35,292 bases of DNA from assembly GCA_963205245.1 (NCBI GenBank), contig CAUJIB010000051.1, forward strand, positions 1-35,292. The letters are read 5' to 3'. Of the stretch, positions 2,915-21,594 are shown one piece after another (position 1 is the first letter of the stretch; each line of letters begins with the position of its first letter). This DNA comes from Pseudomonadota bacterium (lineage in GTDB: Bacteria; Pseudomonadota; Alphaproteobacteria; Rickettsiales; SXRF01). A program made the position numbers and the translations under genes. Under the pieces are notes generated by a model, which worked only from the letters and a program-made list of their open reading frames with translations, was not told the DNA's origin and did not search any database.

Positions 2915-2933
2915 TAGATTTTTTTTATATAAT

Positions 2934-4398: not shown

Positions 4399-4410
4399 TT
4401 TATAATCACT

Positions 4411-4587: not shown

Positions 4588-4596
4588 AGGAAAATT

Positions 4597-5935: not shown

Positions 5936-5964
5936 AAATAAATATTAACAAAATAATATTGCGG

Positions 5965-5998: not shown

Positions 5999-6062
5999 TT
6001 TGTTAACTATTTTACGAATTTAATTATATTAAAATATTAATTATATTAAAAAGGATAGCCTT

Positions 6063-6467
6063 ATGGCGAGTTTAAGCTATTATAATTTACAAAAAGCGAT
6101 ATACGAAAAATTATCAGGAAATAGCCAGCTTATGTCTATTGTGAGCGGGGTATTTGACTATCCTGTGCAATCTGCGGTATTTCCGTTCGTGAGCATAGGA
6201 AATGCAAGTATCGCAGAGATTATAAATTTAGCTGGAATAATAACAGAATATAATATTAATATTAACATTTTTGCGCGCGATTCTGGGAAAAAGAAAGTGG
6301 CCGATATAATAGAAATAATTTATGGATTATTACATCATGGTTCTATTTTTGTTGTGGAAAAAATGTTAATAATGATGCAGGTGCAATCCACTGTGATACA
6401 GCTTGAGAATGATGGAAAAACTTATAAGGGTATAGTCAGTCTAAAAATACTGTTAAATGATGATTAA
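6063..6467 (+). CDS. Tail terminator / tail completion protein, DUF3168 (RcGTA gp8-like)
   Basis: 134 residues. The pattern is that of DUF3168: an N-terminal LQKAIYEKLSGNSQLMSIVS helix, then GVFDYPVQSAVFPFVSIGNA, a central NININIFARDSGKKKVADII, and C-terminal strands ending in a KGIVSLKILL-type edge. Members cap the tail tube at its head-proximal end. An AAAGGA ribosome binding site precedes the ATG. In RcGTA the next gene is the tail tube (gp9); here the next two genes are on the opposite strand and are not tail proteins. The stop overlaps that of the convergent gene within the palindrome TTAA. Confidence 0.88.
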   Translation: MASLSYYNLQKAIYEKLSGNSQLMSIVSGVFDYPVQSAVFPFVSIGNASIAEIINLAGIITEYNININIFARDSGKKKVADIIEIIYGLLHHGSIFVVEKMLIMMQVQSTVIQLENDGKTYKGIVSLKILLNDD

Positions 6468-7195
6468 TTAGGATTATTTATCCTATTTTCCAATAGTATT
6501 ATATAGTCATTAAATTGCTTATAGCTGGATTCTACATTAGGGGCTATACATTCATTTTTTGAATATAGTTCATCATATGAACCTTTGGCAGCAGTTAGAA
6601 CGTCATATTGAAGTCGCTCGGGTGCATGTAGTGGTATAGCTTCTTTTTGCAATGACTGAAAAATTATTTGGTAATCTTTTTCGGTGGTCTTTCCGCATTT
6701 TTGTAAAAAGAAATAATTTACAAGGAGTTCTTCATAACGTCTTTTTATATTATCAATTGCACTATTAATATCTGGTTTTTGGTCAGAATTAAAGACTTCT
6801 TCAATGGTACTCTGAGCTGAATTTTTTGATATAGCTACTGTTGTATTGGTTGTATTTTCAGGTGCTGGAGCTAGCGCGGTGGTATTTTTATTTTCCAGTT
6901 GTTCTGTTTCTATGGTTTTTGTTATTAATGCGTTATTTTGAAGTTGTAATAATTTATTATTGGTATCTGTTAAGCGCCAGCTATAAAACGTAATTACCAT
7001 TATAGAAATGATAATTATAAACAGTAAATATATAGTCTGATAAGTAAAAAAAAATGATATTTCTTTGGTTAAATCAGGATGATATTTGTTTTTTATATAG
7101 GATTTTAAGCGTTTTTTTTCAGTAAAATGAAAAAACAATGTAATGCAGAACGTAACAAATAATAACAGCAAAATTATTATAAGTTCGGCATCCAT
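6464..7195 (-). CDS. Orphan membrane protein with two N-terminal TM segments
   Basis: Not recognised. 243 residues. Two strongly hydrophobic segments, about residues 4-22 (LIIILLLLFVTFCITLFF) and 51-70 (around YLLFIIIISIMVITFY), with a basic loop between. After these comes a Thr/Asn/Ala-rich linker (about 95-125), then a helical C-terminal domain with PERLQYDVLTAAKGSYDELY and two or three cysteines. The domain is probably periplasmic or exposed. It is encoded 6 nt after the lectin-like gene 7202-7702, so they form a two-gene reverse-strand unit. A joint envelope role is inferred from this pairing. Confidence 0.75.
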   Translation of the reverse strand: MDAELIIILLLLFVTFCITLFFHFTEKKRLKSYIKNKYHPDLTKEISFFFTYQTIYLLFIIIISIMVITFYSWRLTDTNNKLLQLQNNALITKTIETEQLENKNTTALAPAPENTTNTTVAISKNSAQSTIEEVFNSDQKPDINSAIDNIKRRYEELLVNYFFLQKCGKTTEKDYQIIFQSLQKEAIPLHAPERLQYDVLTAAKGSYDELYSKNECIAPNVESSYKQFNDYIILLENRINNPN

Positions 7196-7201
7196 ATATT
7201 T

Positions 7202-7702
7202 TTATTTTCTCTCTAATAATTTGTCACAATCAATTATCAGGGAATCATACTCTGAAGATGCTGTGCGCATGCGATCAATTGCAAAACAACGATATTCTAT
7301 GAGTAGCTTTTTGGGAACACAGTTTGGCAATGGATCTTCTCCTAAAGCATCGGTATTAATAGGTATTTCACATCTTGCTTTGCCATTACATAATTTTGAT
7401 ACATTATAAATAACATTATTATCTTTGATTTTATCAAGATTAACACCAGAGCTGCTTTCCTCATACTTGTAGTTCTGTTGTGTGTTGCCGTATGAATTAT
7501 TGCCGGTTTTTTTATTGTAAAGTTGTAGGCAGTTTAGCCCCCAGCTGGCACTTGATACGGTTATGGTGTATGGAGATATTTCTACTATCTGCCTGTTTCC
7601 TGTAATTGGATGTTGTGGTGCTTTTGAAGTAACCATCTGAGTAATAATATATATTGCTAATATTAATACTGATACAATTACAAGGTGTTTGTTAAATGAC
7701 AT
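7202..7702 (-). CDS. Membrane-anchored SUEL-lectin-like protein
   Basis: 166 residues from the ATG at 7700-7702; an in-frame GTG at 7714 would add four residues. The N-terminus has a hydrophobic anchor (about residues 7-24, LVIVSVLILAIYIITQM). The rest follows the galactose/rhamnose-binding SUEL lectin pattern: ITVSSASWGLNC at the start of the domain, then VSKLCNGKARCEIPINTDAL, and the closing KLLIEYRCF with the NC of LPNCVPKK before it. The spaced Cys residues would give the family's disulfides. Such domains bind sugars, so surface carbohydrate recognition is plausible. The match is by eye and lacks the usual FGDPC (here LGEDPLPNC). Confidence 0.6.
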   Translation of the reverse strand: MSFNKHLVIVSVLILAIYIITQMVTSKAPQHPITGNRQIVEISPYTITVSSASWGLNCLQLYNKKTGNNSYGNTQQNYKYEESSSGVNLDKIKDNNVIYNVSKLCNGKARCEIPINTDALGEDPLPNCVPKKLLIEYRCFAIDRMRTASSEYDSLIIDCDKLLERK

Positions 7703-7773
7703 TGTTAGTTTCACTGAGTAGATAACGATATTGGAAAAAAATATAATTATAAATTAGAATACGGAGTATAGCA

Positions 7774-8115
7774 ATGGGCATGGAATTTACAAATCGAAAA
7801 GAATATTATCAAATAAATTCAGTTAATGAGCGATTAATAAGAGTAGAAAAAATATTGCAACAACTGTTTGAGTATTCAAGCAATAATCAAAAAAACGATA
7901 TAAATATTGATATAAAGTCTAATTTGCTAGAAAGCATATTAAGTACATCCAATAAATTAGAGCAAGAAACTCACCTTCATAAAACTGTCACAATTCCAGA
8001 ATTTTTATCAGAAAATAATAAAAAATATAATAAAAATAGTATGTTATTAAGCAGGATGCAGGTGATAACGCAAATGGCTTCCGCCATTATGAGGGCAAAT
8101 AGCCGCAATTTATAA
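7774..8115 (+). CDS. Orphan helical protein, 113 aa
   Basis: Not recognised. Asn/Lys-rich helical protein with a coiled-coil-like N-terminal half (NERLIRVEKILQQLFEYSS) and a C-terminal helix RMQVITQMASAIMRANS. GGAG precedes the ATG at good spacing, and a TATAAT lies at 7742-7747. It occupies the place where a tail tube or tail chaperone would be expected after DUF3168, but its sequence resembles neither. Composition is more AT-rich than the neighbouring tail genes. It could be a small chaperone of the next operon, but nothing in the sequence proves this. Confidence 0.62.
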   Translation: MGMEFTNRKEYYQINSVNERLIRVEKILQQLFEYSSNNQKNDINIDIKSNLLESILSTSNKLEQETHLHKTVTIPEFLSENNKKYNKNSMLLSRMQVITQMASAIMRANSRNL

Positions 8116-8218
8116 TATTTAATATATTGATATATAATAATTTAATATTAAAAAAATATCTTTGGAGTGTCGTAACTAAAATGTCATAAAAAACTTATGG
8201 TTACACATAGCTGTTTTT

Positions 8219-8227
8219 TGGTATACT
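8219..8227 (+). promoter_or_regulatory. Extended -10 promoter candidate for the 8269 gene
   Basis: TGGTATACT matches an extended -10 box (TG-n-TATACT, hexamer at 8222-8227), about 40 nt before the ATG at 8269. No good -35 box is seen, which an extended -10 can tolerate. TGTCGTAA (8168) and TGTCATAAAA (8182) lie just upstream and may be a regulator site. Confidence 0.4.
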
Positions 8228-8268
8228 GACTGGGTAAATTAGGAAAATTATAACCTTTCAAATATGGC

Positions 8269-10155
8269 ATGACCGATAATTACAATAACATTGGTACTGG
8301 TCAAGGAATGGATCTGTCGGCATTAGCGTCGCAGGCACAGGGCAATTTTGCGCAAGCACAGAATAATGCAATAAATACCATATCCAATTTCTCTACTGTT
8401 CAATCTAAAGGTGGAAAAAGCTACTGGATGGGGATGGAGCTTTCACCAGAGATGGCTCTTTTGATGACGCAGGCAACCAGCTCGTTGCCGGCTTTTTTCA
8501 ATGATTCAGTAAATGGCGGTGTATATAGGCATGCTTCTGGCCTTTATAATAAAATATATAAGCAGGCTACTGGTAAGGAAAATCTTAAAGGTGGCCATAA
8601 AGCAGGGATAAGAACTGCGGCTGGGGTGATGGGGCTGCTAATTGGTATTCAGCCTACTATTGGGGTGGTGCAGGCACTTAAAAACAGGAGTGAGGCTCGC
8701 CGTGATATTCGTAAAAATATAGAATCTATAATAGAAACCAATAATAATTACGAAGATAATGAAGTTATAAAAACCGCTATGGAACGAACCCAGCGTATTA
8801 TGATTAGTGGTTTCAAAGATGCTTCGGCACAATTGCCGATGGTTCTAGCGAGTGGTTGGTTTGCTCTTGGTAATCACAAGGCAATGGTGCATGATAAAAA
8901 TAGAGAATTTACAGGTAGGTTAAAACGTGCTTCTGCAACTGCTGTTAATGCGCAGGAAGATTTTATTGCTAAAAGAGTTTCTGATGATAATAAATTTAGG
9001 GAAGCAGCAGAGAGAAGTGGAATTAAAGAGAGCGATCCTTTATTTGAGAATATGCAGCGTGAATGGCGGGAAATAAAAGCTGCTGAACATGAAATTGCTG
9101 AAGAAAAAAAATCAGGAAAATTCCAGGTTGATGCCAAGACACAAAATTTTGTCAATATGGGTGCTTTGGTTGGCAACGTGTTCATGCAAAGGGCAGTTTC
9201 CAAGGATAATAAAGAAGAATTTTCTAAACCAACAGCTTATAACCTGATAATGAATTTACAAAATGCTGTTAATAACGGGGAAGTTCCGGAAGGTTCTAAC
9301 ATAACGCAGCATATTATTGAAATTTTCCAACAAAATGAGATTGATCGCGGGCGTTCCAAAATTGGTGATGCTCTCCTTAATAAATTCCAGCCACTAGCTG
9401 AAATGATTGGCAATGAAATTTCTGAACAAAGGCTTGATGCTATTGCTTTGGTTAATTTGGTTGGTGAAGGAAAAATTATTAATAAACGCCGTTTTATTGA
9501 TGAAGAACATCTGGAAAACCTAATAGATATTCAGAAAAAAGTTTTTGGTTCACATGAAAAAACCTCGTTAGATGATTGGCTGGCTGATTTCAAAAGCCCT
9601 AATATGATAATGAAAGCGGTTAAAGAAAACCTGAAAAATCTGCAAGGTGATGAAAAGGCACTGTTTGCGTCATTATTTTCTGATGATGTTCTTATCCGTA
9701 GCGGAGTTAATAAAAAAGATATACTGCCGCTTAGGGAGCGTGGTTATGAACTAACCCGCAATTTTGTTGTTAATACTGCAATTGAATTGTCACAAAAAGA
9801 GCCTGAAGAGCTTGTAAAAATGGGACTTTCCTCTGCCCAGATTGAAGGGATAAACAGTCTTAACCAACTGCTGGAAGAGGGGAAGGCAAAAGAGGCAAAA
9901 GCATTAATTGCTGATATAAAAAATGGTAATGTAACACCAGCTGTTAGGGATTACATGTTGCTAAAACAGGCAGAAGGTAGTGATGGTAAGAAATTGTGGA
10001 CTGAGGCTGTTAAAGCAGCTCATAAAAAACCGGTAACGCCAACTCCTAAAAAACCCGTAATATCAAAAGAAGAAATGCCGGATATGTCCGCAGTTGAACG
10101 TCTTAATGCCGGACGTAATGAGAATGCTGGAGTTCCTCTTGGCGGACTTGCTTAA
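8269..10155 (+). CDS. Large orphan protein, 628 aa (trio member 1)
   Basis: Not recognised. Start ATG at 8269. N-terminus Gln/Asn/Ala-rich with the motif NNIGTGQGMDLSAL, echoed in the next gene. Residues about 107-137 contain a Gly-rich hydrophobic helix pair (TAAGVMGLLIGIQPTIGVV), and about 187-205 another (QLPMVLASGWFALGNHKAM). From about 210 the protein is helical and charged, with probable coiled coils (DFIAKRVSDDNKFREAAE; REIKAAEHEIAEEKK). A Pro/Lys linker at about 585-603 (HKKPVTPTPKKPV) leads to a short tail NAGVPLGGLA. It stands where the tail tube and chaperones should be. It could be a highly diverged tape-measure-like protein, a secreted effector or a membrane-active factor; none is demonstrated. 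Confidence 0.78.
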   Translation: MTDNYNNIGTGQGMDLSALASQAQGNFAQAQNNAINTISNFSTVQSKGGKSYWMGMELSPEMALLMTQATSSLPAFFNDSVNGGVYRHASGLYNKIYKQATGKENLKGGHKAGIRTAAGVMGLLIGIQPTIGVVQALKNRSEARRDIRKNIESIIETNNNYEDNEVIKTAMERTQRIMISGFKDASAQLPMVLASGWFALGNHKAMVHDKNREFTGRLKRASATAVNAQEDFIAKRVSDDNKFREAAERSGIKESDPLFENMQREWREIKAAEHEIAEEKKSGKFQVDAKTQNFVNMGALVGNVFMQRAVSKDNKEEFSKPTAYNLIMNLQNAVNNGEVPEGSNITQHIIEIFQQNEIDRGRSKIGDALLNKFQPLAEMIGNEISEQRLDAIALVNLVGEGKIINKRRFIDEEHLENLIDIQKKVFGSHEKTSLDDWLADFKSPNMIMKAVKENLKNLQGDEKALFASLFSDDVLIRSGVNKKDILPLRERGYELTRNFVVNTAIELSQKEPEELVKMGLSSAQIEGINSLNQLLEEGKAKEAKALIADIKNGNVTPAVRDYMLLKQAEGSDGKKLWTEAVKAAHKKPVTPTPKKPVISKEEMPDMSAVERLNAGRNENAGVPLGGLA

Positions 10156-10288
10156 TATTAGCTTCTTTTCCTAGGTATAATGTATAAAAAACAAATACTT
10201 ATATTGAGAAAAAATATTGTAATAAAAACCCTCTATGCTGTCATAAAATATTAATAAAAAAACAGTGGGATAGGCTGTAATTTCAAGT

Positions 10289-10294
10289 TATAAT
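10289..10294 (+). promoter_or_regulatory. Perfect -10 box upstream of the 10335 gene
   Basis: TATAAT at 10289-10294, 41 nt before the ATG at 10335, in the 179-nt gap between trio members 1 and 2. The -35 region (TGGGAT at 10266-10271) is poor. TGTCATAAAA at 10239-10248 lies further upstream, matching the word before the 8269 gene. The second and third trio genes may have their own promoter here. Confidence 0.38.
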
Positions 10295-10334
10295 CTGATT
10301 ATAAAAAATAATTGCGATTATTCAGGTTTTTTTA

Positions 10335-11693
10335 ATGGCTTTACCAAAAAGTAAGATTGGAAATAATGGTGTAGGGACGGGATCTGGTCTTGATGCTGAT
10401 GATCTGCCTTTACCAGATAATGTTTCCGCAATTGGAAAATTTGATCCAAACAGACAATCAACGTTAGCTAGTAAAGGTACGGAAGTAGGGCAGTTGCCAG
10501 TTAGTGAGTTGCCTAAAACCAATGTAATTAGTGAGGTTCTTGATACCGCTGGGGAAGTTACAGGAGCGGTAACAAATACTACTTTAATGGCTGCTGGTGT
10601 TTTACCTATGGTAACTCCTTTGGTAGAAAGTGGCGCAGGATTAGTTGGAAAAGCTGGTGAAAAGATTGGTGTAAAATTTATTGAAAATGCCGGAAAAAAT
10701 ACTCAAGCCGGAATTAATAGGCTTACCGAGAAAACCTTTGAAGAGGTGATGCCTAACGTAACTAAAAGCAAGTTTGTTATTAGGCCTGTAAATTTTGTAT
10801 CTAATGTTGCTGGTAATGTAATCAATAAAATAACCGGTGTTTTGGGTTCTAAAAACCAATCTATCGGTAATGATGTAAAAGCTTTGCCGCAGACTATTGC
10901 TAAATCAAATATGCGTGAAGGTCTTGTAAACACAGCTTTTATCGCTGGTTCAGCAATTAGTATGTTTGGAGTGGCGACTGGGTTTATTCAAAATCTGGCA
11001 TCGCTCAAAGAAATGCACAAAGATATTACCGGAAAATCAGCATCAACTTATGATGTTTTATTTGGCAAAGTTTCTGTCCCCGTGGCTGATGCCCGCTCTA
11101 AACTGCTTAAGACATTTACTGTATCAGGTACGACAGATGTTATTTCACTTGGTGTGGCAGTAGCGGGAGCAATAAGCAAGAAAGTTCCAATGTTAGCATT
11201 CTTTGCACCACAAGTATTGAGCATGGGAGCAAGCACTTTAATTGGTGAATCTGCTATGCCTTATTATGCTTCTATCAAACAAGCTCATGCTGCCGGTCAG
11301 AAAATACCTGCGGACGCTTATGCCGAACTGATTGCTAAAGCCAGCCCAGAACTTGCAAAACGTGGTGGTTCTGCCAGTGTATTCACACAAAAACTTGCCG
11401 AGCAATATGCACAAAATAATGTTAGTCCCGCGCAAATTATGCGTGAAGCGGCTAATGGTCAGTTAATAAAACGTGTTGATGGCATAATTGCGGCTAATGA
11501 AGCAGCAAAGAAAACTACAGTAAACACAGCATTGGCAGCGCAGCCACAACAAGCACATTCGCATGTTGCTGCGTTAGAAGGAAAGCGTAACGGTCAAGCT
11601 GTGCAGGGCGTTGTTGGTGAGCATACTGCAAGGATAGTATCTGATGCTGTTCGTGCTGGGCAAACTCCTAATTTAGTACCTGCAGGAGTGTAG
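10335..11693 (+). CDS. Large orphan protein, 452 aa (trio member 2)
   Basis: Not recognised. Start ATG at 10335, with only a weak CAGG upstream. N-terminal about 60 residues are Gly/Pro/Asp-rich and probably disordered, with NNGVGTGSGLDADDL resembling NNIGTGQGMDLSAL of the previous protein. Three Gly/Ala-rich hydrophobic stretches follow, around residues 73-107, 197-225 and 270-305 (for example AFIAGSAISMFGVATGF and MLAFFAPQVLSMGAS). The C-terminal part is helical with KLAEQYAQNNVSPAQIMREA, then an Ala/Gln/His-rich linker and the tail TPNLVPAGV. No catalytic motif. The next gene starts 3 nt after its stop, so the two are one operon. Membrane interaction is plausible. Confidence 0.78.
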   Translation: MALPKSKIGNNGVGTGSGLDADDLPLPDNVSAIGKFDPNRQSTLASKGTEVGQLPVSELPKTNVISEVLDTAGEVTGAVTNTTLMAAGVLPMVTPLVESGAGLVGKAGEKIGVKFIENAGKNTQAGINRLTEKTFEEVMPNVTKSKFVIRPVNFVSNVAGNVINKITGVLGSKNQSIGNDVKALPQTIAKSNMREGLVNTAFIAGSAISMFGVATGFIQNLASLKEMHKDITGKSASTYDVLFGKVSVPVADARSKLLKTFTVSGTTDVISLGVAVAGAISKKVPMLAFFAPQVLSMGASTLIGESAMPYYASIKQAHAAGQKIPADAYAELIAKASPELAKRGGSASVFTQKLAEQYAQNNVSPAQIMREAANGQLIKRVDGIIAANEAAKKTTVNTALAAQPQQAHSHVAALEGKRNGQAVQGVVGEHTARIVSDAVRAGQTPNLVPAGV

Positions 11694-11696
11694 TTT

Positions 11697-12686
11697 ATGG
11701 CAAGTGATAAAGAAGCGTATATACAAAATTTATTAGATGAACGTGGTGCTTTAGAGAAGGCCAAAGCTGGTGATTTTAGCCATCTTAACTCTGCAGATAT
11801 AGCAGATGTAGCTGCTTATACCAATTCAGGGATTGGCTGGGCAGATAGGACATCAAAAGTTCTGGGGAATGGGGCTTTAGCAAAAGTACCATTTGCCGGA
11901 GTTGGAATTGCTGCTTGGGGAGGAAGTGCTAGAGGTGAGCGTGACTTGGAAAGAATGGCTTATTGGTTTTCTGATGGGAACCGCGCCTTATTGAAGCGTG
12001 ATCCAACTTATAGAAATGCTGTTAAAAAAGCAGAAGAAGCAGGCTATGCAGGGGCAGAATCAGCATCTTGGGTATTAGGTGGCAGCTTAAGTGGAGCGGC
12101 TCTAGCCGGACTTCTTACTTTGAACCCAATTGCTGCTGTAGCTGGAGCTATGGCTGGAGGTTGGGCGACTGGTAGTTTCCATGATTCTGTGGTAAAAGAT
12201 CATTTTCAAGATCCTGTTGCTATAACCATTCAGGCTGTGAAAATGCAGGCAACCGGAGAACACGTGCCAACAGAAGTGGTTTTTGCTGCTCTTGCTGCTA
12301 ATTTGCAAGGCAAAGATGCAGAAAGAGTTGATAAATTATTGGAAAGGTTTACGGGTACTAAAATATTTGCTGAGGCTTTATCTGATCCTAATAATATTTC
12401 TAAGTTACAGGCGATGATGAATGACCCGATAATAGCTGATGCCATTCGTGCTCAAACCGGCATGATTCCTGATCCAAAAAATCCAATGAAAACTGTAGCT
12501 GAGCAATATTCTGAACTAATTAATAATGGGCATATGGCTGCTAAGAATTTACTTGATAAAGGTACAGGCATAATCGCCCTGTCCATGGCGCAAAAAGGTG
12601 TTCCAAATCCGGAAGTTGAATTTCAAGCTCAGTTAGGCTTGCCGCTCAAAAAACAGAATCAGGCCGCTGCCGGAGTGGCTATCTAA
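11697..12686 (+). CDS. Large orphan protein, 329 aa, with glycine-zipper segment (trio member 3)
   Basis: Not recognised. ATG 3 nt after the stop of the 10335 gene, with AGGAG inside the end of that gene. A charged N-terminus precedes KVPFAGVGIAAWGGSARGER. Residues about 122-165 are a long Gly/Ala-rich hydrophobic hairpin (LGGSLSGAALAGLLTLNPIA, then VAGAMAGGWATGSF), a glycine-zipper style often seen in membrane-inserting proteins. The C-terminal half is helical (FAALAANLQGKDAERVDKLL; IADAIRAQTGMIPDPKNP) and ends NQAAAGVAI. It lies directly before gp12, the usual place of the tape-measure gene, but length and sequence do not match the RcGTA tape measure. Its role remains open. Confidence 0.78.
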   Translation: MASDKEAYIQNLLDERGALEKAKAGDFSHLNSADIADVAAYTNSGIGWADRTSKVLGNGALAKVPFAGVGIAAWGGSARGERDLERMAYWFSDGNRALLKRDPTYRNAVKKAEEAGYAGAESASWVLGGSLSGAALAGLLTLNPIAAVAGAMAGGWATGSFHDSVVKDHFQDPVAITIQAVKMQATGEHVPTEVVFAALAANLQGKDAERVDKLLERFTGTKIFAEALSDPNNISKLQAMMNDPIIADAIRAQTGMIPDPKNPMKTVAEQYSELINNGHMAAKNLLDKGTGIIALSMAQKGVPNPEVEFQAQLGLPLKKQNQAAAGVAI

Positions 12687-12741
12687 TTTCTATATATTCT
12701 CGCGTATGGCGAGGAATAATCAAAATTATTGGAGTTTTTTT

Positions 12742-13344
12742 ATGGCATTCGTTGAAGTGTGCTTTCCCACTGATATTGCTTATGGCTCATCAGGAGGCCC
12801 TGAATATTCTACTGATATTGTTATAACTGCTGGTGGTTATGAGCAGCGCAATATAAATTGGTCACAGGCACGCGCCCACTATAATGTAGCGCATGGTGTA
12901 AAAACACAGGCGCAATTAAATGAATTAATAGCTTTTTTCCGTGCACGTAAAGGTAGAGCGGACGGTTTCCGCTTCAAGGATTGGAGTGATTATAAAGCTG
13001 TTGCACAAATAATTGGTACTGGAGATGGTACAAATAAAATTTTTCAATTAATAAAAACTTATACTAGTGGCAGTATAACTGAAACACGCATTATTACTAA
13101 GCCGACTGCTGATAATATAAATATTTATGTGGCTGGTGTGTTGCAGGCGGGAGCGGCTTATTCCCTTAATAATACAACTGGCAAAATTACCTTTGTAACT
13201 GCTCCTGTGGGTGCAGCTATTATTACTGCCGATTTTGAATTTGATGTTCCGGTACGTTTTGACACAGATCGTCTCTCAGCTACCCTTGATTATTATGGGG
13301 TTAACAGCTGGAACAATATTCCGCTGGTTGAAGTTAGGATTTAG
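12742..13344 (+). CDS. DUF2460 distal tail protein (RcGTA gp12-like)
   Basis: 200 residues from the ATG at 12742, chosen because GGAG (12731-12734) lies 7 nt upstream and homologues begin with the same MAFVEVCFPTDIAYGSSGGP block. An upstream in-frame ATG (12706) would add an atypical extension. Diagnostic segments of TIGR02217/DUF2460: QRNINWSQARAHYNVAHGVK, ELIAFFRARKGRADGFRFKD, and the end RFDTDRLSATLDYYG...IPLVEVRI. In RcGTA this protein forms the distal tail ring between tube and hub. The gene is followed 10 nt later by gp13, one of the few GTA junctions left undisturbed here. Confidence 0.94.
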   Translation: MAFVEVCFPTDIAYGSSGGPEYSTDIVITAGGYEQRNINWSQARAHYNVAHGVKTQAQLNELIAFFRARKGRADGFRFKDWSDYKAVAQIIGTGDGTNKIFQLIKTYTSGSITETRIITKPTADNINIYVAGVLQAGAAYSLNNTTGKITFVTAPVGAAIITADFEFDVPVRFDTDRLSATLDYYGVNSWNNIPLVEVRI

Positions 13345-13354
13345 GAGAAAAATA

Positions 13355-14206
13355 ATGAAACAAATTTCTACTGCTCTTGCTACGCATCTTGCGGGTGAGG
13401 TTACTACCCTTGCAACCTGTTGGAAGCTTACGCGGCGTGATAATACAGTATTTGGTTTTACCGATCATGATATTGATATTATTTTAGATTCAGTTGTCTA
13501 TAAGGCTGCAAGCGGGTTTACCCCTAGCACAATCCAAAATACTGCGTCTCTTAGTGTTGATAATTTAGATATTGAAGGAATGCTAAATGACGGAAGTATA
13601 ACTGAGGTGGATATTATGGCTGGATTATATGATTTTGCAGAAATTGAAATTTTTAGAGTTAATTATAATGATTTGACACAAGGAATCCTAAAATTACGCA
13701 GGGGATGGCTTGGCGAGGTGTCTTTAGCAAAGCAACAATTTATAGCAGAGGTGAGGGGGCTTACCCAAAGGCTTTCACAAACTATAGGTGAACTTTACTC
13801 ATCTTCCTGCCGCGCAACATTTGCGGATTCACGTTGTAAAATAAATGCCAGTACTTATACTGTAGCCGGCTTGATAACAAATGTTTCCTCACATCAGGAA
13901 TTTAAGGATGCAAGCCGAACTGAAGCAAGCGGAATTTATAATTTTGGAAAAATAACTTTTACCAGCGGCTTAAATAATGGTTTAAGCATGGAGGTAAAAG
14001 AATTTACCAGCGGCGGTAAAGTAGTTTTAGTGTTGCCCATGCCTTATAATGTAGCGATTGGTGATAGTTATAGTATGTTACAGGGATGTGATAAAACCCT
14101 TAGCACCTGCACAAACCAATATAATAATGTGCTTAATTTTAGAGGAGAGCCCTATATTTCAGGGATAGATGCCATGCTTGAAACTGCCGGTACAAGAAAT
14201 AGGTGA
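13355..14206 (+). CDS. DUF2163 tail hub protein (RcGTA gp13-like)
   Basis: 283 residues from the ATG at 13355, which has AGGAG 9 nt upstream; the frame is open further upstream only through the end of gp12. The family marks of TIGR02218 are all present: TTLATCWKLTRRDNTVFGFT with HDIDI near the start, ASLSVDNLDIEGML, the Cys pair in SSSCRATFADSRC (about 150-159) and the C-terminal GCDKTLSTCTNQYNNVLNFR followed by GEPYISG. The four cysteines are the conserved set of this family and may bind metal. The product is the hub at the tail tip that joins gp12 to the gp15 fibre/spike. Confidence 0.95.
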   Translation: MKQISTALATHLAGEVTTLATCWKLTRRDNTVFGFTDHDIDIILDSVVYKAASGFTPSTIQNTASLSVDNLDIEGMLNDGSITEVDIMAGLYDFAEIEIFRVNYNDLTQGILKLRRGWLGEVSLAKQQFIAEVRGLTQRLSQTIGELYSSSCRATFADSRCKINASTYTVAGLITNVSSHQEFKDASRTEASGIYNFGKITFTSGLNNGLSMEVKEFTSGGKVVLVLPMPYNVAIGDSYSMLQGCDKTLSTCTNQYNNVLNFRGEPYISGIDAMLETAGTRNR

Positions 14207-14285
14207 TTTGATATGTGATTTTTCTACTTACTTTGTATATAATTAATGATATGAAGAGCAACATAAAAAAGGTTGATTGGTTATT

Positions 14286-14477
14286 ATGCAGGTAATACGA
14301 GATTTTATTTTTGGTGCGTTTTCAGTATTGAAGGTTACTGGCTCACCATTGCTTTACCGCTATCCATACCATAATTCAGCAGAAGGCCTGTATAAAGACT
14401 GGATGAATATAGCTGATGATATTCAAAGTATAATCGGTAAATTAGAAGAATATGATAATGGAAACAGAACAGAATAA
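14286..14477 (+). CDS. Small orphan protein, 63 aa, upstream of DUF2335
   Basis: Not recognised. Start ATG at 14286 (a TTG at 14277 is also possible). The N-terminus is amphipathic/hydrophobic (QVIRDFIFGAFSVLKV); the rest is acidic, ending EEYDNGNRTE. It overlaps the DUF2335 gene by 26 nt, which would give translational coupling. AGG at 14270-14272 is a distant ribosome binding site for the ATG. The frame is short, so it is accepted mainly for the overlap and for the otherwise empty gap after gp13. Confidence 0.5.
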   Translation: MQVIRDFIFGAFSVLKVTGSPLLYRYPYHNSAEGLYKDWMNIADDIQSIIGKLEEYDNGNRTE

Positions 14478-14958
14478 AATTAATCCGGAAAAAGTTACGC
14501 GTACCGGCGGGCATTATAACCGTGGCGGACGTGATAGAATGCAAAACCGTACGGTAGAGATTCTCCCGCATCCTGAAGTTCTGGAAAGCTATAATTATGT
14601 GGTGGACGGTTCGGCAAAAATGATCCTGACTATGTTTGAAATGGAGCAAAAACACCGTCATGAGTGGGAGAGGCAAGCCCTGCGTGTGCACGCGACTTCT
14701 TCGCTGGTTGGACAGATTTTAGGGTTTTTTATCGCTGTTGCCGTGTTTATTTCTGCTACGGTTATCGGAATGTATGGAAATTCTACCATCGCAGCGAGTA
14801 TCTGGGTGTTCGGTATGGCGATTATCGTTATGGCTGGTTTGGTTTGGGCTTATGCTAAGAGCATGGGGCAACGCCCGCTTTTTGCCCGCCCTACCATGCG
14901 CACCCACTTCCGCCCGCAGAAAGAAGAGAAAGATAAGGAAAAAGATAAGGAAGAATAG
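14452..14958 (+). CDS. DUF2335 membrane protein
   Basis: 168 residues (166 if the second ATG, 14458, is used). Follows the DUF2335 pattern: a basic disordered N-terminus, ILPHPEVLESYNYVVDGSAK (about 38-56), the conserved MFEMEQKHRHEWER helix (61-74), then two membrane segments, about 86-107 (VGQILGFFIAVAVFISATVI) and 112-134. The C-terminus is strongly charged (Lys/Glu repeat). The family is a predicted membrane protein of unknown function, often found in prophages and integrative elements. Its position between gp13 and gp14 is foreign to RcGTA. It ends exactly at a 12-bp direct repeat (14958-14969). Confidence 0.85.
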   Translation: MIMETEQNKINPEKVTRTGGHYNRGGRDRMQNRTVEILPHPEVLESYNYVVDGSAKMILTMFEMEQKHRHEWERQALRVHATSSLVGQILGFFIAVAVFISATVIGMYGNSTIAASIWVFGMAIIVMAGLVWAYAKSMGQRPLFARPTMRTHFRPQKEEKDKEKDKEE

Positions 14959-14985: not shown

Positions 14986-15615
14986 TCATTTTGGATCCCA
15001 TTTTCCGGATTTTACCCATGTGGCTATTGCCGTAGCTTTTTTGGGGGTATCAAGAGACCTTGTAATAGCTAAACGTAAAGCCCAATAGAAAGAATCTATC
15101 CATACAATGGTTCTATTTTGATTACGCCTAAATGTAGGATCGGAATAGGGACGTTGATTAATTAACTGTTCAAGCTGAGTAAGATTTTCTTCATACGTTG
15201 CAAAAACCCGCCAAAATTGTACCATACCTGAAGTATTTGTCTGATTTGTTCGTAAGCTGTAGCGATGAAATAGTGGGCAGCGAACTTCTTCCCATAGAAA
15301 TTGGCATGCTTCGTCAATACTCAGACCATCTGGTGGGTCCAATTCCCATGGAAAATTATTTCTTACAAAACTTTGGAATTTTTCTCCGTTAGTTGCTTTC
15401 TTGCCTCCTGAATACAAAAGCTGTGCTGCGCCATCTGCTGCAGCAAGCAGTAAAATCAATAAAGGTCTTTGTAAGCTTCCTTTCGATCCTTGATCTGGTT
15501 TTTGAATTGTCAGGAGAAAACGAAATTCAGCCAAGAAAGGGTCTATTACTTCTCTAACTAGAGAAGCTATTTCTATTGGTACATGATCGGCTAATATAAT
15601 AGCTTGATAAGCCAT
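14986..15615 (-). CDS. Orphan cargo protein, 209 aa
   Basis: Not recognised. Soluble, rich in aromatic residues and Arg. A central hydrophobic helix RPLLILLLAAADGAAQLLY (about residues 50-68) is followed by KFQSFVRNNFPWELDPPDG, CPLFHRYSLRTNQT and IVWIDSFYWALRLAITRSL. The style is a globular helical protein; an enzyme is not evident. Start ATG 15613-15615; no strong ribosome binding site. It is bracketed by two copies of a 12-bp repeat matching the nearby tRNA-Ser T-arm, so it may have arrived as a small separate insertion between gp13 and gp14. Confidence 0.72.
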   Translation of the reverse strand: MAYQAIILADHVPIEIASLVREVIDPFLAEFRFLLTIQKPDQGSKGSLQRPLLILLLAAADGAAQLLYSGGKKATNGEKFQSFVRNNFPWELDPPDGLSIDEACQFLWEEVRCPLFHRYSLRTNQTNTSGMVQFWRVFATYEENLTQLEQLINQRPYSDPTFRRNQNRTIVWIDSFYWALRLAITRSLDTPKKATAIATWVKSGKWDPK

Positions 15616-15884
15616 ATCAATTTTCTTTCAATGCCGTTTGTTTTATAAATTGTGACAGTTAGGATTTCTAGAAAAATTTGGATTGTTATGGTTACTGAAA
15701 GTTTTATTACCTCTAAAATAATTTAGAGGCTATATATATCTGTAATATGCTCAACTTGCTTTCCAGTCGCCACTTCTGGGATACTCAATTTTTCTTCTAT
15801 GACTGTCTTTTTTCTGTTTCATAATCATTCATCGGATATTCAGGTAATATCCTACAATAAGTTCAGTATATAAGTAATTAGAAG
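15616..15884. other. Non-coding stretch with one perfect hairpin
   Basis: AT-rich, no credible reading frame. A perfect 8-bp hairpin CCTCTAAA / TTTAGAGG with loop ATAA lies at 15710-15729. It is upstream of the reverse-strand gene that starts at 15615 and could belong to its control region or terminate a transcript coming from the tRNA side. Confidence 0.5.
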
Positions 15885-15886
15885 AT

Positions 15887-15998
15887 GGGCGGGATTGACG
15901 CTTCGCCTACTGGCTTCGCGCCCTTCGGGTCTCTCGGCTTTGCCTCGATTTCCAAAATGTCTGCTGACATTTTGTCGAACTTCGTTCTCATCCCACAC
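15887..15998. repeat. GC-rich intergenic repeat island rich in CTTCG words
   Basis: About 110 bp, much richer in GC than the surroundings. It opens with GGGCGGGATTGA (second copy of the 14958 repeat) and then shows nested short palindromes: GGCTTCGCG, CCCTTCGGG, CTCGGCTTTGCCTCGA, and a perfect hairpin CAAAATGTC / GACATTTTG with loop TGCT. It ends TCTCATCCCA. This is typical of dispersed intergenic repeat elements that gather next to tRNA genes in alphaproteobacteria. A forward reading frame through it and the tRNA is judged spurious. Confidence 0.6.
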
Positions 15999-16006
15999 TA
16001 CTACTA

Positions 16007-16045
16007 TTTATTAGAAATAGGCATTTCATGCCAATTTCTAATAAA
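16007..16045 (-). terminator. Long near-perfect hairpin abutting the tRNA-Ser 3' end
   Basis: Arms 16007-16024 and 16028-16045 pair over 18 positions with a single A-A mismatch, around the loop TTC. The hairpin begins at the base after the encoded CCA of tRNA-Ser (16046-16048). It may terminate or process the tRNA transcript, although no T-tract follows on the reverse strand. The length and abutment also suit a small mobile palindrome inserted at the tRNA end. Confidence 0.55.
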
Positions 16046-16135
16046 TGGCGGACAGGGCGGGATTCGAACCCGCGATAGAGTCACCCCTATACACACTTTC
16101 CAGGCGTGCGCCTTAGACCACTCGGCCACCTGTCC
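16046..16135 (-). tRNA. tRNA-Ser (anticodon GGA)
   Basis: The reverse strand folds as a 90-nt class II tRNA. The acceptor stem GGACAGG pairs with CCTGTCC, followed by discriminator G and an encoded CCA (16046-16048). U8 and the D-arm GGCCGAGTGG are present. The anticodon stem CACGC...GTGTG encloses CTGGAAA, giving anticodon GGA (reads UCC/UCU). A long variable arm precedes the T-arm GCGGG-TTCGAAT-CCCGC. All serine identity features, including the long variable arm and the G73 discriminator, are there. It lies on the opposite strand between gp13 and gp14 of the GTA cluster, an odd place for a tRNA gene and a possible integration landmark. Confidence 0.97.
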
Positions 16136-16319
16136 CTTTTAGTCTTCCTAATTTAATTTTTTACATCGTCAGGCTACGGCTTATGTACTTTATGTGTACA
16201 CTGCGCCTTGCCTTCCTTGTATAAAAAGAAATTAGTTTGACTATAGCTTTCAAAGAAGGTGGAACATAATGGCTATTTTTTTACTATTCAACAGATTTTA
16301 GAGATAATCACTTATTATT

Positions 16320-16415: not shown

Positions 16416-16841
16416 ATGCAAAATGAAATAATAACTGTCGCACGGGGCTGGATTGGAACGCGTTTTCACCATCAGGGACGCTTAAAAAAATCTGGTACGC
16501 ATAAAGGTGGGGTTGATTGCTTGGGGTTACTTATAGGTGTGGCACAGGAGCTTAATCTACCGTTTGTAGATTATGATGAAACTAATTATTCGCACTATCC
16601 TGACACTCAAAAGCTAAAACATAAACTAGCACATGCAATGCTGGAAATACCTAAAGATAATATGCTGGCAGGGGATATTCTACTGCTGGAAATTGATGGT
16701 AACCCACAGCATTTGGCGATTGTTAGTGAAATTGCCAGTGAATTGGCCATTATTCATGCCTATGCTCCAGCCCATGCGGTTGTGGAGCATAATTTAGATG
16801 ATTGGTGGAAAAAACGTGTAACCTCTGTTTTTCGGATATAA
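16416..16841 (+). CDS. NlpC/P60 peptidase (RcGTA gp14-like)
   Basis: 141 residues from the ATG at 16416, chosen because AAAGGA precedes it and homologues start just before VARGWIGTRFHHQGR. An ATG at 16335 would translate the repeat element. Catalytic Cys35 in GGVDCLGLL, catalytic His99 in NPQHLAIV, preceded by the GDILLLE strand. This is the TIGR02219 phage-type cell-wall peptidase, which in RcGTA helps the particle through the peptidoglycan of the recipient. It should adjoin gp13 and gp15, but 2.2 kb of foreign DNA precedes it and a spherulin-4-like gene follows. Confidence 0.93.
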   Translation: MQNEIITVARGWIGTRFHHQGRLKKSGTHKGGVDCLGLLIGVAQELNLPFVDYDETNYSHYPDTQKLKHKLAHAMLEIPKDNMLAGDILLLEIDGNPQHLAIVSEIASELAIIHAYAPAHAVVEHNLDDWWKKRVTSVFRI

Positions 16842-16928
16842 TAGCTAATAAATTAAATAATTATTAGTAACAATTAAGGTATAATTTATTTTCTTCCGAT
16901 ATAATCTAAAATAAGGGAAGGTTTTTCT

Positions 16929-17807
16929 ATGGTAAAAAAAATATTAAATATTAGTAGTTTAGCTATTATTGTAAGCGCTGCTGTAATAGCAAATTCTAGT
17001 GCGGCAGTAATTCAAGCTAAAATTCTGGTGCCGGCATATTTTTACCCCGGAGTGGATGGAAACGAAAACGGTACGGATGACTGGCAAGATATGGCTGATG
17101 CCAGTAAAACAATTGAGATTATTGCAGTTATGAATCCGTCCAGCGGTTCCGGTGGTAAATCAGATATTAACTATGTAAATGCTGTAAATAAATTGCGTAG
17201 CAATGGAGGAAAAGTTATTGGCTATCTATCTACTCAGCGCGGAGAACGTCCAATGGCTACGTTAAACCAGCAAATCAAAAATTATATTAACTGGTATAAA
17301 GTAGATGGGTTCTTTTTTGATGAAATGCCAAGTGCACACGATATGAGCATATTAACTGCAGCACAGCGTACAGCCAATTATAATTATTATACTACCTTAT
17401 ATAGCACTGTTAAAAAATTAGTTGGGCATAATTACGTTCTTGGTAATCCAGGAAATATTGCTAATGCGCGCTTTCTAGACCAGCCAACCACAAATGCACT
17501 GGTAACTCTTGAAAATGATGCTACCAAACAGACTGTTGTAAATCCTCCACCAGCTGGTGCTATTGGATATACTCCAGCGGTTTGGCAGCTTGCATCACCT
17601 CATGTTAAATCACAGTTTGCACTTATATTACATAATGTTTCCACAGCTTCTAAAATGCAGGCTATAGTTAATGCTGGTATCCCTAAGGGTTTTGGTCTTT
17701 ATTATGTAACTGATGATAGCAATGTAGATTCCAACCCATTCGATCGTCTGCCAAAATATTGGGGTGCGTTCGTTACAAAAATTAAAAATACTTCTTATAA
17801 TCAGTAA
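16929..17807 (+). CDS. Secreted spherulin-4-like glycosidase
   Basis: 292 residues. An N-terminal signal peptide (about 1-27, basic MVKK then a hydrophobic run ending NSSAAV) indicates export. The mature part follows the spherulation-specific family 4 pattern: ILVPAYFYPG...DWQDMADASK at the start, IIAVMNPSSGSGGKSDINY, VIGYLSTQRGER, the acidic active-site-like motif WYKVDGFFFDEMPS (about 122-135), then NYVLGNPGN and the late ALILHNVS. The fold is a TIM-barrel glycosidase type; the substrate is unknown, possibly an exopolysaccharide. It has a good GGGAAGG ribosome binding site and its own terminator (17831-17864). This is a complete transcription unit placed between gp14 and gp15. Confidence 0.83.
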   Translation: MVKKILNISSLAIIVSAAVIANSSAAVIQAKILVPAYFYPGVDGNENGTDDWQDMADASKTIEIIAVMNPSSGSGGKSDINYVNAVNKLRSNGGKVIGYLSTQRGERPMATLNQQIKNYINWYKVDGFFFDEMPSAHDMSILTAAQRTANYNYYTTLYSTVKKLVGHNYVLGNPGNIANARFLDQPTTNALVTLENDATKQTVVNPPPAGAIGYTPAVWQLASPHVKSQFALILHNVSTASKMQAIVNAGIPKGFGLYYVTDDSNVDSNPFDRLPKYWGAFVTKIKNTSYNQ

Positions 17808-17830
17808 TACCAAGATAAAATAAAACTGTG

Positions 17831-17864
17831 GGCGGTTCGGCTAAGGTTCTGAACCGCCTTTTTT
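17831..17864 (+). terminator. Rho-independent terminator after spherulin-4 gene
   Basis: Perfect 8-bp stem GGCGGTTC (17831-17838) / GAACCGCC (17851-17858), loop of 12 nt, followed by TTTTTT. It begins 24 nt after the stop of the 16929 gene and ends 44 nt before gp15. Transcription of gp15 therefore probably needs its own promoter or readthrough. Confidence 0.88.
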
Positions 17865-17907
17865 ATATTTAATAATACAAAAACATTTATCAACTATAGG
17901 AAAAATC

Positions 17908-20900
17908 ATGGCATCAATTATTTTAAGTGCCGCAGGTTCAGCTGCGGGCGCGGCAACCGGCTTGCCGTTTGGCGCGCAAATTGGCTCTATGGCTGGTAGA
18001 TATGTCGGCGGATTTATTGATTCTAAAATAAATAATGGAAAATTAGCTCCTATTCATGGTTCACGCCTTGCTGATCTTGCTGTACAAAATTCAACTTATG
18101 GTAAAATGATACCGATTGTTTATGGAACTGTGCGGATTGGCGGTAACATCATATGGTCGCAACCGATAAAAGAAGTTATTACCACCTCAACTAGCTCAGC
18201 AGGTGGAGGCGGAAAAGGCGGTGGTGGAAAGGTTAGCCAGACTTCCAGCAGTTATAGTTATTTTGTGGATTTGGCGGTGGCGGTGTGCGAAGGCGAGGTG
18301 AGCGATGTTTTGCGTATCTGGGCGGATGCCAAGCAGCTTGATACGTCTGCTTATAACATCCGTGTTTATAAAGGCAGTGAAGCGCAAATGCCTGATTCCC
18401 TGATCTCAGCTATTGAAGGGACAGGCAAAACACCTGCTTATCGTGGTTTGGCTTATGTAGTGTTTGAGGGATTTCCACTTGCGGATTTCGGTAACCGTAT
18501 CCCTAATTTTAGTTTTGAAGTGCAGAAAAAAGCTATTTATGCCGATTATAATAACGAAACAGTGGAAGAAATGCTTGAAGGAATAGTGATGATTCCCGCA
18601 GCGGGGGAGTTTGTGTATGACACGCAGGCGGATTATAAAGTTTCCGGCGCACAAGTGGGAGTAGATTGGGTACAGCAAGGCAACCAGCAGCGCATCAATA
18701 TGCACAATGCCAGTGGTAAGGCTAATGCCCTGCTATCCCTTGATCAACTTAGGGATACTTGCCCCAATGTGGAGTGGGTATCGGTTACGGTGGCTTGGTT
18801 TGGCGATAATATGGATGTGGCAAGCTGTAATATAGCTCCCGGAGTGGAATATCAGGCAGGGGCGACAACGCAGCCGAATATATGGGCAGTTGCCGGTTAT
18901 GACCGTGCTACGGCAAAGTTGATTACACAAATAAGCGGTGCACCGCAATATGGCGGTACACCTGATGATGCAAGCTTGCTGCGGTATCTTGATGAGCTTA
19001 AAGCACGTGGTTATAAAATCATGTTTTACCCGCTGTTATTTATGGATGTAAGCGGCAAGCCATGGCGGGGAGAGCTTACTGGTAGTCCGGCGGCTGTTTC
19101 TAATTTTTTTACTAAAACAAACGGATATAATGATTTCATCAATCATTATTCTAATCTTGTAAAAACCAAAGTTGATGCTTTCGCTATTGGTTCGGAACTT
19201 AAAGGGCTTACCGGACTTATGGACACTGCTGGTAATTACCCCGCGGTCAATGCTCTTGTAAGTTTAGCTGCCAGTGTGAAAACAGCTGTAGGTGTTGGTG
19301 TAAAAGTAACTTATGCTGCTGATTGGAGTGAATATCACCACACTGATGGCGGGTGGTATAATTTAGACCCGCTCTGGGCAAGCGGCAATATTGATTTTAT
19401 CGGTATAGATGCTTATTTCCCGCTTACTGATAGTGCAGAAACAATTTATGATATTGATGAAGTGAAAGCGGGTTGGACATCAGGCGAGGGTTATGACTGG
19501 TATTATAGTGACACGCAGCGTACCATAAAAGTAAACTTAACCCCTGCAATGGCATGGAAAAACCTTGATTGGTTCTGGAATAACACGCACATAAACCCTA
19601 ATAGCGTGGCGACTGGCTGGATACCGCAATCAAAGAAAATCTGGTTTACAGAATATGGTTTTCCCAGCGTTGATTGCGCTACCAACCAGCCGAATGTATT
19701 TTATGATCCTAGTACTGGCGGCAGTAGTTTTCCTTATTTCTCTAAAGGGCGGGTGGATATGCGGGCACAGCGGGTTGGGATTGCCGCCACTCAGTCGCAA
19801 TGGGCAGGTTCAAGCATGGTGGAGAGAATGTTCGCGTGGACATGGGATGCAAGGCCGTTTCCTTATTGGCCGGAGTTAACTAATGTGTGGAATGATGGGG
19901 TGGTATGGAAAACAGGGCACTGGCTGCAAGGCAAATTAGGGGTTTCTAATTTAGCAGCCATTGTAAAAGATTTGTCACTGCGTTCCGGATTGCAGGAAAG
20001 CGATATTGATGTAAGTAAAATTAGTGAAATGCTTGATGGCTATGTTATAAACAGCCAGCAAACTATCCGTGAAGCGATTGAGGTTTTACGCAAAGCTTAT
20101 TTCTTTGATACGGTGGAAAGTGATTATATTCTGCGCCATGTGCCACGTGGTGAGGACGTTGCACTTGATATTGATGAGGCGGATATTATACCGGAAAAGG
20201 CAGAAGGGCATAATGCAGATGAATTATGCAAAATTACCAGAACGCAGGAAATTGAATTGCCTAAGCGGGTGAATGTTGTTTACCTGAACCGCCTTTCCAA
20301 TTACCAAACTTCTACTCAATACTCGCAGCGTGAGGTGACAATCAGCAGGGAAATAGAAACTCTGGATTTCCCATTAGTAATCTCTGACCAGATAGCTAAA
20401 AATATAGCCGATATAACATTGTTTTCTGATTGGACAGGGCGGACGCATTATGATTTTGACCTGCCCATAAAATATGCCCAGCTTGACCCCGCTGATATTA
20501 TAACTCTGAATCTGGACGGTGCTTTACACCGTATGCGTGTTACTTCAACTTATATTGGTGCGCCCGGCATAGTGCGGGTATCTGCCGTTGCGGAGGATGT
20601 TACAAACTATGATTTTTATAACTTGGCGGGCAGTGCAGAAATAATTTCACTGCAGGAAAATGTGAATATTCCTGAAACAAAATTAGAATTGCTGGATCTT
20701 CCGCTTTTCCCATCAGATGATAGTGATAAAGTGGTGTTGCGTGTAGCAGCTTGTGGTCTTGCCAGCGGCTGGGGTGGAGCGGTGGTTTATCGTTCTGATG
20801 ATAACGGCGCAAATTATTCCCGTTTTTCTTCACTGGAAAACTCAGCGATAATAGGTGTGACTTCGACGATTTTAGCTTCTGCATCCAGCGCAGTATTTGA

Positions 20901-21594
20901 TGAAAAAAATACTGTGACAGTAATATTGCTGGGACAGGCAGAGTTACAAAGCGTAAGCGAGCTGGCAATATTAAATGGCACAAATGCAGCACTTCTGGGT
21001 GATGAGATTATCCAGTTCAAAACTGCGACTTTGGTAAGCGAAGGAAAATATGTTTTAAGCGGTTTGCTACGTGGAAGACTTGGCACAGAATGGGCAATTT
21101 CTGGACATAGTGCAGGAGAAAGATTTATATTGCTTGATGGTGCGCTGGATAAACAAATTATGGCAAGTAATGTAATTGGGCTTACGCGCCAATATAAAGC
21201 TGTAACGATAGGAAGTAGCATTGCTTCGGCTAATTCACAGAATTTTTTCTATAGTGGAGTTGCATTGAAGCCATATAGTCCCGTTCATATCACAGGAACT
21301 CGTGACGGTGGCGGTAATTTGACCATAAATTGGGTAAGGCGAACCCGCATAGGTGGTGATTTCCGAGATTATGTGGATATTCCACTTAATGAAGTAAGCG
21401 AGCTATATGATGTGGAGATAATGAATGGAGCGAGTGTAGTTCGTACGTTTTCAGGATTAGGTAATCCCACCGTCAGCTACAGCGCAGCCCAGCAAATAAC
21501 TGATTTTGGTAGCATGCAAAGCAGCGTTAATGTGAATATATACCAGATTTCAGGAGCAGTAGGCAGAGGCTACGCTGGTTTAGCTGTGGTTTAA
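17908..21594 (+). CDS. Giant TIM-barrel tail-tip protein (RcGTA gp15-like 'megatron')
   Basis: 1228 residues, close to the about 1300 of RcGTA gp15. Start ATG with AGGAAA upstream. The N-terminus is hydrophobic and Gly-rich (SAAGSAAGAATGLPFGAQIG), then IPIVYGTVRIGGNIIW and a Gly-rich loop (about 98-107). The GTA TIM-barrel (about 350-600) is marked by KIMFYPLLFMDVSGKPW, FAIGSELKGL, YAADWSEYHH, GIDAYFPL and IWFTEYGFPS. A phage-tail domain follows from about 690 (KRVNVVYLNRLSNYQTSTQY; FDLPIKYAQLDPADIITLNL), and the C-terminus has LLRGRLGTEWA. The protein forms the tail tip and probably acts on cell-surface glycan. The frame is intact along its whole length, which argues that the cluster is still under selection. 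Confidence 0.95.
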   Translation: MASIILSAAGSAAGAATGLPFGAQIGSMAGRYVGGFIDSKINNGKLAPIHGSRLADLAVQNSTYGKMIPIVYGTVRIGGNIIWSQPIKEVITTSTSSAGGGGKGGGGKVSQTSSSYSYFVDLAVAVCEGEVSDVLRIWADAKQLDTSAYNIRVYKGSEAQMPDSLISAIEGTGKTPAYRGLAYVVFEGFPLADFGNRIPNFSFEVQKKAIYADYNNETVEEMLEGIVMIPAAGEFVYDTQADYKVSGAQVGVDWVQQGNQQRINMHNASGKANALLSLDQLRDTCPNVEWVSVTVAWFGDNMDVASCNIAPGVEYQAGATTQPNIWAVAGYDRATAKLITQISGAPQYGGTPDDASLLRYLDELKARGYKIMFYPLLFMDVSGKPWRGELTGSPAAVSNFFTKTNGYNDFINHYSNLVKTKVDAFAIGSELKGLTGLMDTAGNYPAVNALVSLAASVKTAVGVGVKVTYAADWSEYHHTDGGWYNLDPLWASGNIDFIGIDAYFPLTDSAETIYDIDEVKAGWTSGEGYDWYYSDTQRTIKVNLTPAMAWKNLDWFWNNTHINPNSVATGWIPQSKKIWFTEYGFPSVDCATNQPNVFYDPSTGGSSFPYFSKGRVDMRAQRVGIAATQSQWAGSSMVERMFAWTWDARPFPYWPELTNVWNDGVVWKTGHWLQGKLGVSNLAAIVKDLSLRSGLQESDIDVSKISEMLDGYVINSQQTIREAIEVLRKAYFFDTVESDYILRHVPRGEDVALDIDEADIIPEKAEGHNADELCKITRTQEIELPKRVNVVYLNRLSNYQTSTQYSQREVTISREIETLDFPLVISDQIAKNIADITLFSDWTGRTHYDFDLPIKYAQLDPADIITLNLDGALHRMRVTSTYIGAPGIVRVSAVAEDVTNYDFYNLAGSAEIISLQENVNIPETKLELLDLPLFPSDDSDKVVLRVAACGLASGWGGAVVYRSDDNGANYSRFSSLENSAIIGVTSTILASASSAVFDEKNTVTVILLGQAELQSVSELAILNGTNAALLGDEIIQFKTATLVSEGKYVLSGLLRGRLGTEWAISGHSAGERFILLDGALDKQIMASNVIGLTRQYKAVTIGSSIASANSQNFFYSGVALKPYSPVHITGTRDGGGNLTINWVRRTRIGGDFRDYVDIPLNEVSELYDVEIMNGASVVRTFSGLGNPTVSYSAAQQITDFGSMQSSVNVNIYQISGAVGRGYAGLAVV

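Follow-up and report, generated by a model that had tools for sequence, protein, structure and literature searches.

A spherulin-4 (GH135-type) gene as lineage-specific cargo, probably encoding an exported glycosidase, between gp14 and gp15 of a Rickettsiales RcGTA-like cluster

The junction between gp14 and gp15 in the RcGTA-like cluster of a Rickettsiales genome holds a complete gene for a spherulin-4 protein. It adds a further member, unusually placed, to an enzyme family already known. We think it rather probable that the gene encodes an exported glycosidase of the GH135 family, that it was gained horizontally, and that it is carried as independent, moron-like cargo in a variable junction instead of being a structural part of the GTA. 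The home is an unusual one for such an enzyme, in an order for which the machine-learning survey of Kogay et al. 2019 counted GTA clusters in 0 of 70 Rickettsiales genomes (PMC6821227). The window analysed here, 35,292 bp long, is an entire contig of a draft genome of 1.88 Mb in 97 contigs, with a completeness of 98.8% and a contamination of 0.5%.

The open reading frame (positions 16929-17807, plus strand, ATG start, 292 aa) is a genuine gene. The Pfam family PF12138 (Spherulin4) covers it essentially in full, from residue 31 to residue 284 and from position 1 to 238 of the 239 in the profile, with an E value of 7.4e-41 and a score of 140.7 bits, where the cut-off lies at 30.2. An initial annotation, made from the sequence alone, had described a complete spherulin-4 unit with a signal peptide, its own ribosome binding site and a terminator, and all of these are found, the first in the form of a signal-peptide-like N-terminus. 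The N-terminus (roughly residues 1-25, positions 16929-17003, plus strand) reads MVKKILNISSLAIIVSAAVIANSSA followed by AV, with the n-, h- and c-regions clear by eye; a simple signal rule, which is a crude one, agrees. A Shine-Dalgarno sequence, AGGGAAGG, lies 7 nt 5' of the ATG (16914-16921, plus strand). In the interval before gp15 there is a strong intrinsic terminator (17830-17859, plus strand), with an 11-bp stem and a T run on its 3' side, for which hairpin calculation gave -18.5 kcal/mol (z -4.4); none of 200 shuffled sequences was equally stable. No promoter for the gene stood out, the promoter-like sites in the region being as frequent as expected from shuffling. Judged from these features the gene is probably functional, and it would be expressed autonomously from its own ribosome-binding site and terminator. 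Because the terminator would stop read-through from gp14, transcription of gp15 probably depends on a promoter of its own or on incomplete termination.

The spherulin-4 family is named after a slime-mould protein. A phmmer search against solved structures returned Aspergillus Sph3 (5c5g and 5d6t, E 2e-11) as the only matches, and a profile built from 13 relatives matched Sph3 with E 1e-38 over a span that includes residues D131 and E195. Both are invariant in all 13 of the family sequences aligned, and they correspond to D116 and E172 of the 5c5g chain, which an offset of 50 converts to D166 and E222 in the numbering of the entry. D131 (codons D131-E132, positions 17319-17324, plus strand) thus occupies the position of the putative nucleophile of Sph3, and E195 (codon 17511-17513, plus strand) that of Glu222, the general acid/base (PMC12054363). 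In that paper the catalytic pair is printed as Asp196/Glu222, where Asp196 is probably a misprint.

The AF2 model of the protein is of moderate confidence, with a mean pLDDT of 66 and values below 50 at residues 195-223, E195 included. Searched with this model, Foldseek placed Sph3 at the top (best 5c5g, E 1.9e-11), and VIA-align gave Sph3 a Z score of 20.1 over 234 residues at 3.5-3.7 A, the next fold having a Z score of 15.7. At this moderate confidence the predicted structure is a Sph3-like (beta/alpha)8 barrel, and the alignment provides the catalytic Asp and Glu of GH135, in agreement with the TIM-barrel-type glycosidase originally proposed. Identity to the characterised fungal Sph3 is about 22-23% in the structural alignments. 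Neither PHROGs nor NCBIfam has a model for the protein. A defence-gene reading was also considered and rejected, PADLOC giving no match for the protein or for the other inserts of the cluster. The GH135 enzymes are retaining endo-alpha-1,4-N-acetylgalactosaminidases (PMC12054363). An exported enzyme of the endo-alpha-N-acetylgalactosaminidase type is the most likely identity of the protein, and it probably cuts galactosamine-containing surface sugars. Few bacterial members of the biofilm-degrading galactosaminidases have been characterised.

In the mechanism that we propose, the protein would leave the cell by the Sec route and, on the cell surface or close to it, would most likely cut a polysaccharide that contains alpha-1,4-linked GalNAc, by a retaining mechanism that uses D131 and E195. 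Candidate targets are the capsule or EPS of the cell itself, a biofilm, or the glycan of a neighbour or of a eukaryotic host. A polysaccharide (EPS) locus of the Wza/Wzc/Wzy type, which includes a GalE-like epimerase and glycosyltransferases, is present in the host genome. PelG is absent from that genome, and Pel was rejected as a host-made substrate; with such a locus and no PelG, a self-made amino-sugar capsule is therefore possible. RcGTA adsorbs to the capsule, which is the receptor of the particle, and its uptake is capsule-dependent (PMC10218006), so that by analogy trimming of the glycan could alter the adsorption of GTA particles or phages.

The surroundings of the gene are those of a GTA. 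At 63-14958, on the plus strand with minus-strand genes interspersed, the cluster contains the gp4 protease, the gp5 capsid, gp6, gp7, gp8, gp12 (distal tail), gp13 (hub) and a DUF2335 membrane protein, its products including a prohead protease, an HK97 capsid protein, and connector, head completion and tail completion proteins. The gene is flanked as stated in the initial annotation, by gp14 (16416-16841, plus strand), an NlpC/P60 GTA cell-wall peptidase by Pfam NLPC_P60 with TIGR02219 below its cut-off, and by gp15 (17908-21594, plus strand), the GTA megatron, with the Pfam domains GTA_TIM, Phage-tail_3 and Rcc01698_C and a match of 1185 bits to the equivalog NF048004 (GTA_megatron). TIGR02218, TIGR02217 and TIGR01554 also exceed their cut-offs, and the gene order is that of RcGTA. 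On the 3' side the cluster is followed by chromosomal genes for a dGTPase-like HD protein, RF3 and Obg. Every family member with a readable locus keeps this order, and dN/dS for gp5, gp13, gp14 and gp15 is 0.03-0.13 in comparison with species of the same genus, synonymous sites being close to saturated; the cluster is under strong purifying selection. A prophage or phage identity was rejected in favour of a conserved chromosomal RcGTA-like cluster. The named relatives of gp15 are from MAGs of uncultured Rickettsiales and Alphaproteobacteria, which places the host in an environmental lineage of the Rickettsiales.

PF06199, for the gp9 tail tube, has no match across the whole genome, and the gp11 tape measure is not recognisable, the open reading frames in 8269-12686 having no family match; divergence is possible in both cases. 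The tail of the GTA particle may be an unusual one, or its proteins may have diverged strongly. We note that three large open reading frames (628, 452 and 329 aa) within 6464-12686 have no family match, although a number of family members have relatives of them at the equivalent position. A secreted-looking protein at 7202-7714, on the minus strand, has a sub-threshold match to the SUEL galactoside/rhamnose lectin domain, and its antisense position is kept in several family members. It is worth adding that in four Rickettsiales-type loci (L077, L078, L086 and L091) gp15 has no detectable adjoining gp12-gp14, and the GTA genes there are seemingly scattered or much diverged.

Within its family the spherulin-4 gene is found in 1 of 16 genomes, that studied here, and is missing from the other 15. 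Counting this genome, carriers number 1 of 55 sampled relatives, 1 of 217 genomes of the order, 1 of 385 of the class, and 9 of 398 in a sample of the phylum. The phylum sample includes one more member of the class with the gene (G839), so that it is rare in the class and not unique. The initial annotation had asked whether orthologues keep the same place next to gp14 and gp15. None was found there in the relatives, a result close to the one that it had named as counting against it, namely absence of the gene from the locus in all of them. It had also grouped gp14, the spherulin-4 protein and gp15 as a set for getting through a wall or exopolysaccharide. This does not stand, since gp14 and gp15 are family-wide and the spherulin-4 gene is missing from every relative, and the count of two glycan-active proteins is not supported either, as the part of RcGTA gp15 that contains the TIM domain has been assigned a structural role in the baseplate megatron, that of a 'peripheral' domain (PMC7296036). 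As far as the genomes compared can tell, the gene is a lineage-specific insertion and not an ancestral component of the GTA particle.

We infer that the gene was gained horizontally in this lineage. A single-sequence search of genome contigs and viral contigs found no relatives of the protein, and a close orthologue was not found; the nearest matches are a Caballeronia megaplasmid protein (35%, 5e-27) and a Vitreoscilla protein (30%). In a tree of 21 sequences, seven viral proteins form a supported clade and the query lies outside it, otherwise without a resolved placement or donor. A eukaryotic donor was rejected, as the bacterial matches are stronger (5e-27 for Caballeronia vs 2e-11 for Sph3, from different databases), with the tree leaving the donor unsettled. 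The codon usage resembles that of the host (LL 0.164 vs 0.07-0.14 for native host genes), so that the gene is adapted in composition to its host, which speaks against both recent arrival from a donor of different composition and a binning error.

The junction itself (16842-17907) is 1066 bp long here, compared with 24-155 bp in cargo-free relatives; it is 24-72 bp in the other family members without cargo and 43 bp in one species of the same genus (G003). In a second species of the genus (G001) the slot holds a different gene, of 132 aa and on the minus strand, and in another family member (G011) small lipoproteins. In a further one (G002) the gp14 side lies beyond the contig and a 362-aa gene and a tRNA-Ser precede gp15. 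Outside this family but within the order, lipoproteins or secreted proteins also occupy the slot in G027, G035, G044, G045, UBA6187 and PL25a_bin.132. Overall, the slot is occupied in 9 of the 23 Rickettsiales-type loci that have both gp14 and gp15, and in 20 of 22 other alphaproteobacterial loci little or nothing separates the two genes. Exported-looking open reading frames make up 10 of 13 in the slot against 56 of 392 comparably sized ones from the loci around it (Fisher p 1.4e-6), a count that depends on a crude lipobox/signal rule, on a greedy choice of reading frames that misses some likelier lipoproteins, and on related genomes. It is thus indicative only of a bias of the slot contents towards exported proteins. 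Pfam gave mostly no family for the other occupants, with one sub-threshold PEGA match. By eye, three slot lipoproteins from different Rickettsiales families (L085 5823-6770, L051 16211-18903 and L048 18536-18859) have the pattern CSLT..GxVWYV..TPG..CxKxGY, which suggests a recurrent or ancestral occupant of the slot.

A second lineage-specific insert (14986-16142, minus strand) lies between the DUF2335 gene and gp14, and consists of a 209-aa open reading frame (14986-15615) and a tRNA-Ser with anticodon GGA (16046-16135). A tRNA-Ser (CGA; L006 32-121) is also present near the gp14-gp15 region in G002, that is, in two species of the genus in all; these tRNA genes may mark places of integration or be remnants of a rearrangement.

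The strongest contender, to which we give not quite an even chance, is that the cluster merely tolerates inserts at several junctions and that the enzyme serves a life apart from the GTA, in biofilm feeding or movement or on the glycan of a host that may be a protist or a fungus; where the gene lies would then have no meaning. The presence of inserts at the gp4-gp5, gp7-gp8 and DUF2335-gp14 junctions as well, the last including the tRNA-Ser of this genome, points in this direction, as do the cellular homologues in unrelated contexts and a codon usage like that of ordinary host genes; the bias of the slot towards exported proteins argues against it, and so does the repeated occupation of the gp14-gp15 junction in separate families, unless this is due to shared ancestry. 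The same bias is what favours a surface-conversion moron, that is, an exported enzyme that would trim the capsule or EPS of GTA producers or recipients and so shift the adsorption of GTA particles or competing phages, much as some phage morons modify the surface of their host. The EPS locus of the host, with its epimerase and glycosyltransferases, and the capsule-dependent uptake of RcGTA are consistent with such a role, although without PelG the polymer would not be Pel and the host EPS is only a putative substrate; we regard this as fairly unlikely. Less likely still is a wider proposal, that GTA clusters of environmental Rickettsiales carry a dedicated gp14-gp15 slot, loaded in each lineage with exported surface-modifying proteins (a GH135 glycosidase in this genome, lipoproteins in others) that would decide the binding of GTA particles or phages to cells, as a GTA counterpart of the surface-conversion morons of phages.

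That the protein travels in or with the tail tip of the GTA and opens the capsule for the particle is very unlikely. Its gene does lie between a peptidase and the baseplate gp15, the capsule is the receptor of RcGTA (PMC10218006), and phages have spherulin-4 domains in tail or fibre regions. An alignment of four rows used as query found 10 viral loci with spherulin-4; gp21 of Rothia phage Spartoi is such a domain in the minor-tail region, Virus Rctr41k encodes another, and in two IMG/VR contigs, L149 and L151, the genes next to it belong to tail-fibre and baseplate families by their matches. Where N-terminus and gene neighbourhood of a phage protein can be read, the protein is presumably particle-borne. 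However, the protein studied here begins with a signal-peptide-like stretch and lacks any domain for attachment or of a fibre, its gene is set apart from gp15 by a terminator, all relatives that retain gp14 and gp15 do so without it, and it falls outside the supported phage clade, even if its own placement in the tree is not settled. Secretion by the host in preference to packing in the particle, as originally suggested, is favoured by this N-terminus and by the lack of a signal peptide in the readable phage relatives. An artefact of assembly or binning, or a decaying pseudogene, is hardly credible: the draft is in 97 contigs and the gene is the sole one of its kind in the sample of the order, but it lies in mid-contig with both flanks 72-84% identical to genes of the sister species, its frame is intact and its catalytic positions conserved, it has a Shine-Dalgarno sequence and a terminator, its codon usage is host-like, and completeness and contamination are 98.8% and 0.5%. 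Independent cargo, then, remains the reading that we prefer, given the gene's own Shine-Dalgarno sequence and terminator, its place between structural genes and its absence from relatives. That a junction of changing content leans towards exported proteins suggests that phage clusters can go on gaining surface-related cargo after domestication, and this recurrent exported cargo between gp14 and gp15 is the part most worth pursuing.

Among known systems, the cluster resembles the RcGTA of Rhodobacter capsulatus in the gp12-gp13-gp14-gp15 order and proteins. Other alphaproteobacteria usually have gp14 directly next to gp15 in their RcGTA-like clusters, whereas here cargo splits them, and gp9 and gp11 are not recognisable. 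Sph3 (GH135) of Aspergillus shares with the protein the Pfam family, the fold, the D/E catalytic positions and probably an extracytoplasmic location, Sph3 being described as membrane-bound; Sph3 serves a galactosaminogalactan biosynthesis cluster, whereas the gene here stands alone inside a GTA cluster. The 'spherulation-specific family 4' proteins of Caballeronia and Vitreoscilla plasmids have the same domain and an N-terminal extension able to serve export, but lie in ordinary chromosomal or plasmid surroundings and not among phage or GTA genes. Viral spherulin-4 genes from Atacama soil have been taken as sporulation genes (PMC8269230); a GH135 glycosidase reading appears to fit the present sequence evidence better. 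These viral contigs, like Spartoi gp21 and Virus Rctr41k, share the domain, which lies close to tail genes wherever the neighbourhood was read; in Spartoi, L149 and L151 it stands within a tail or fibre region and has no signal peptide, in contrast to the signal-peptide-like N-terminus of the protein described here.
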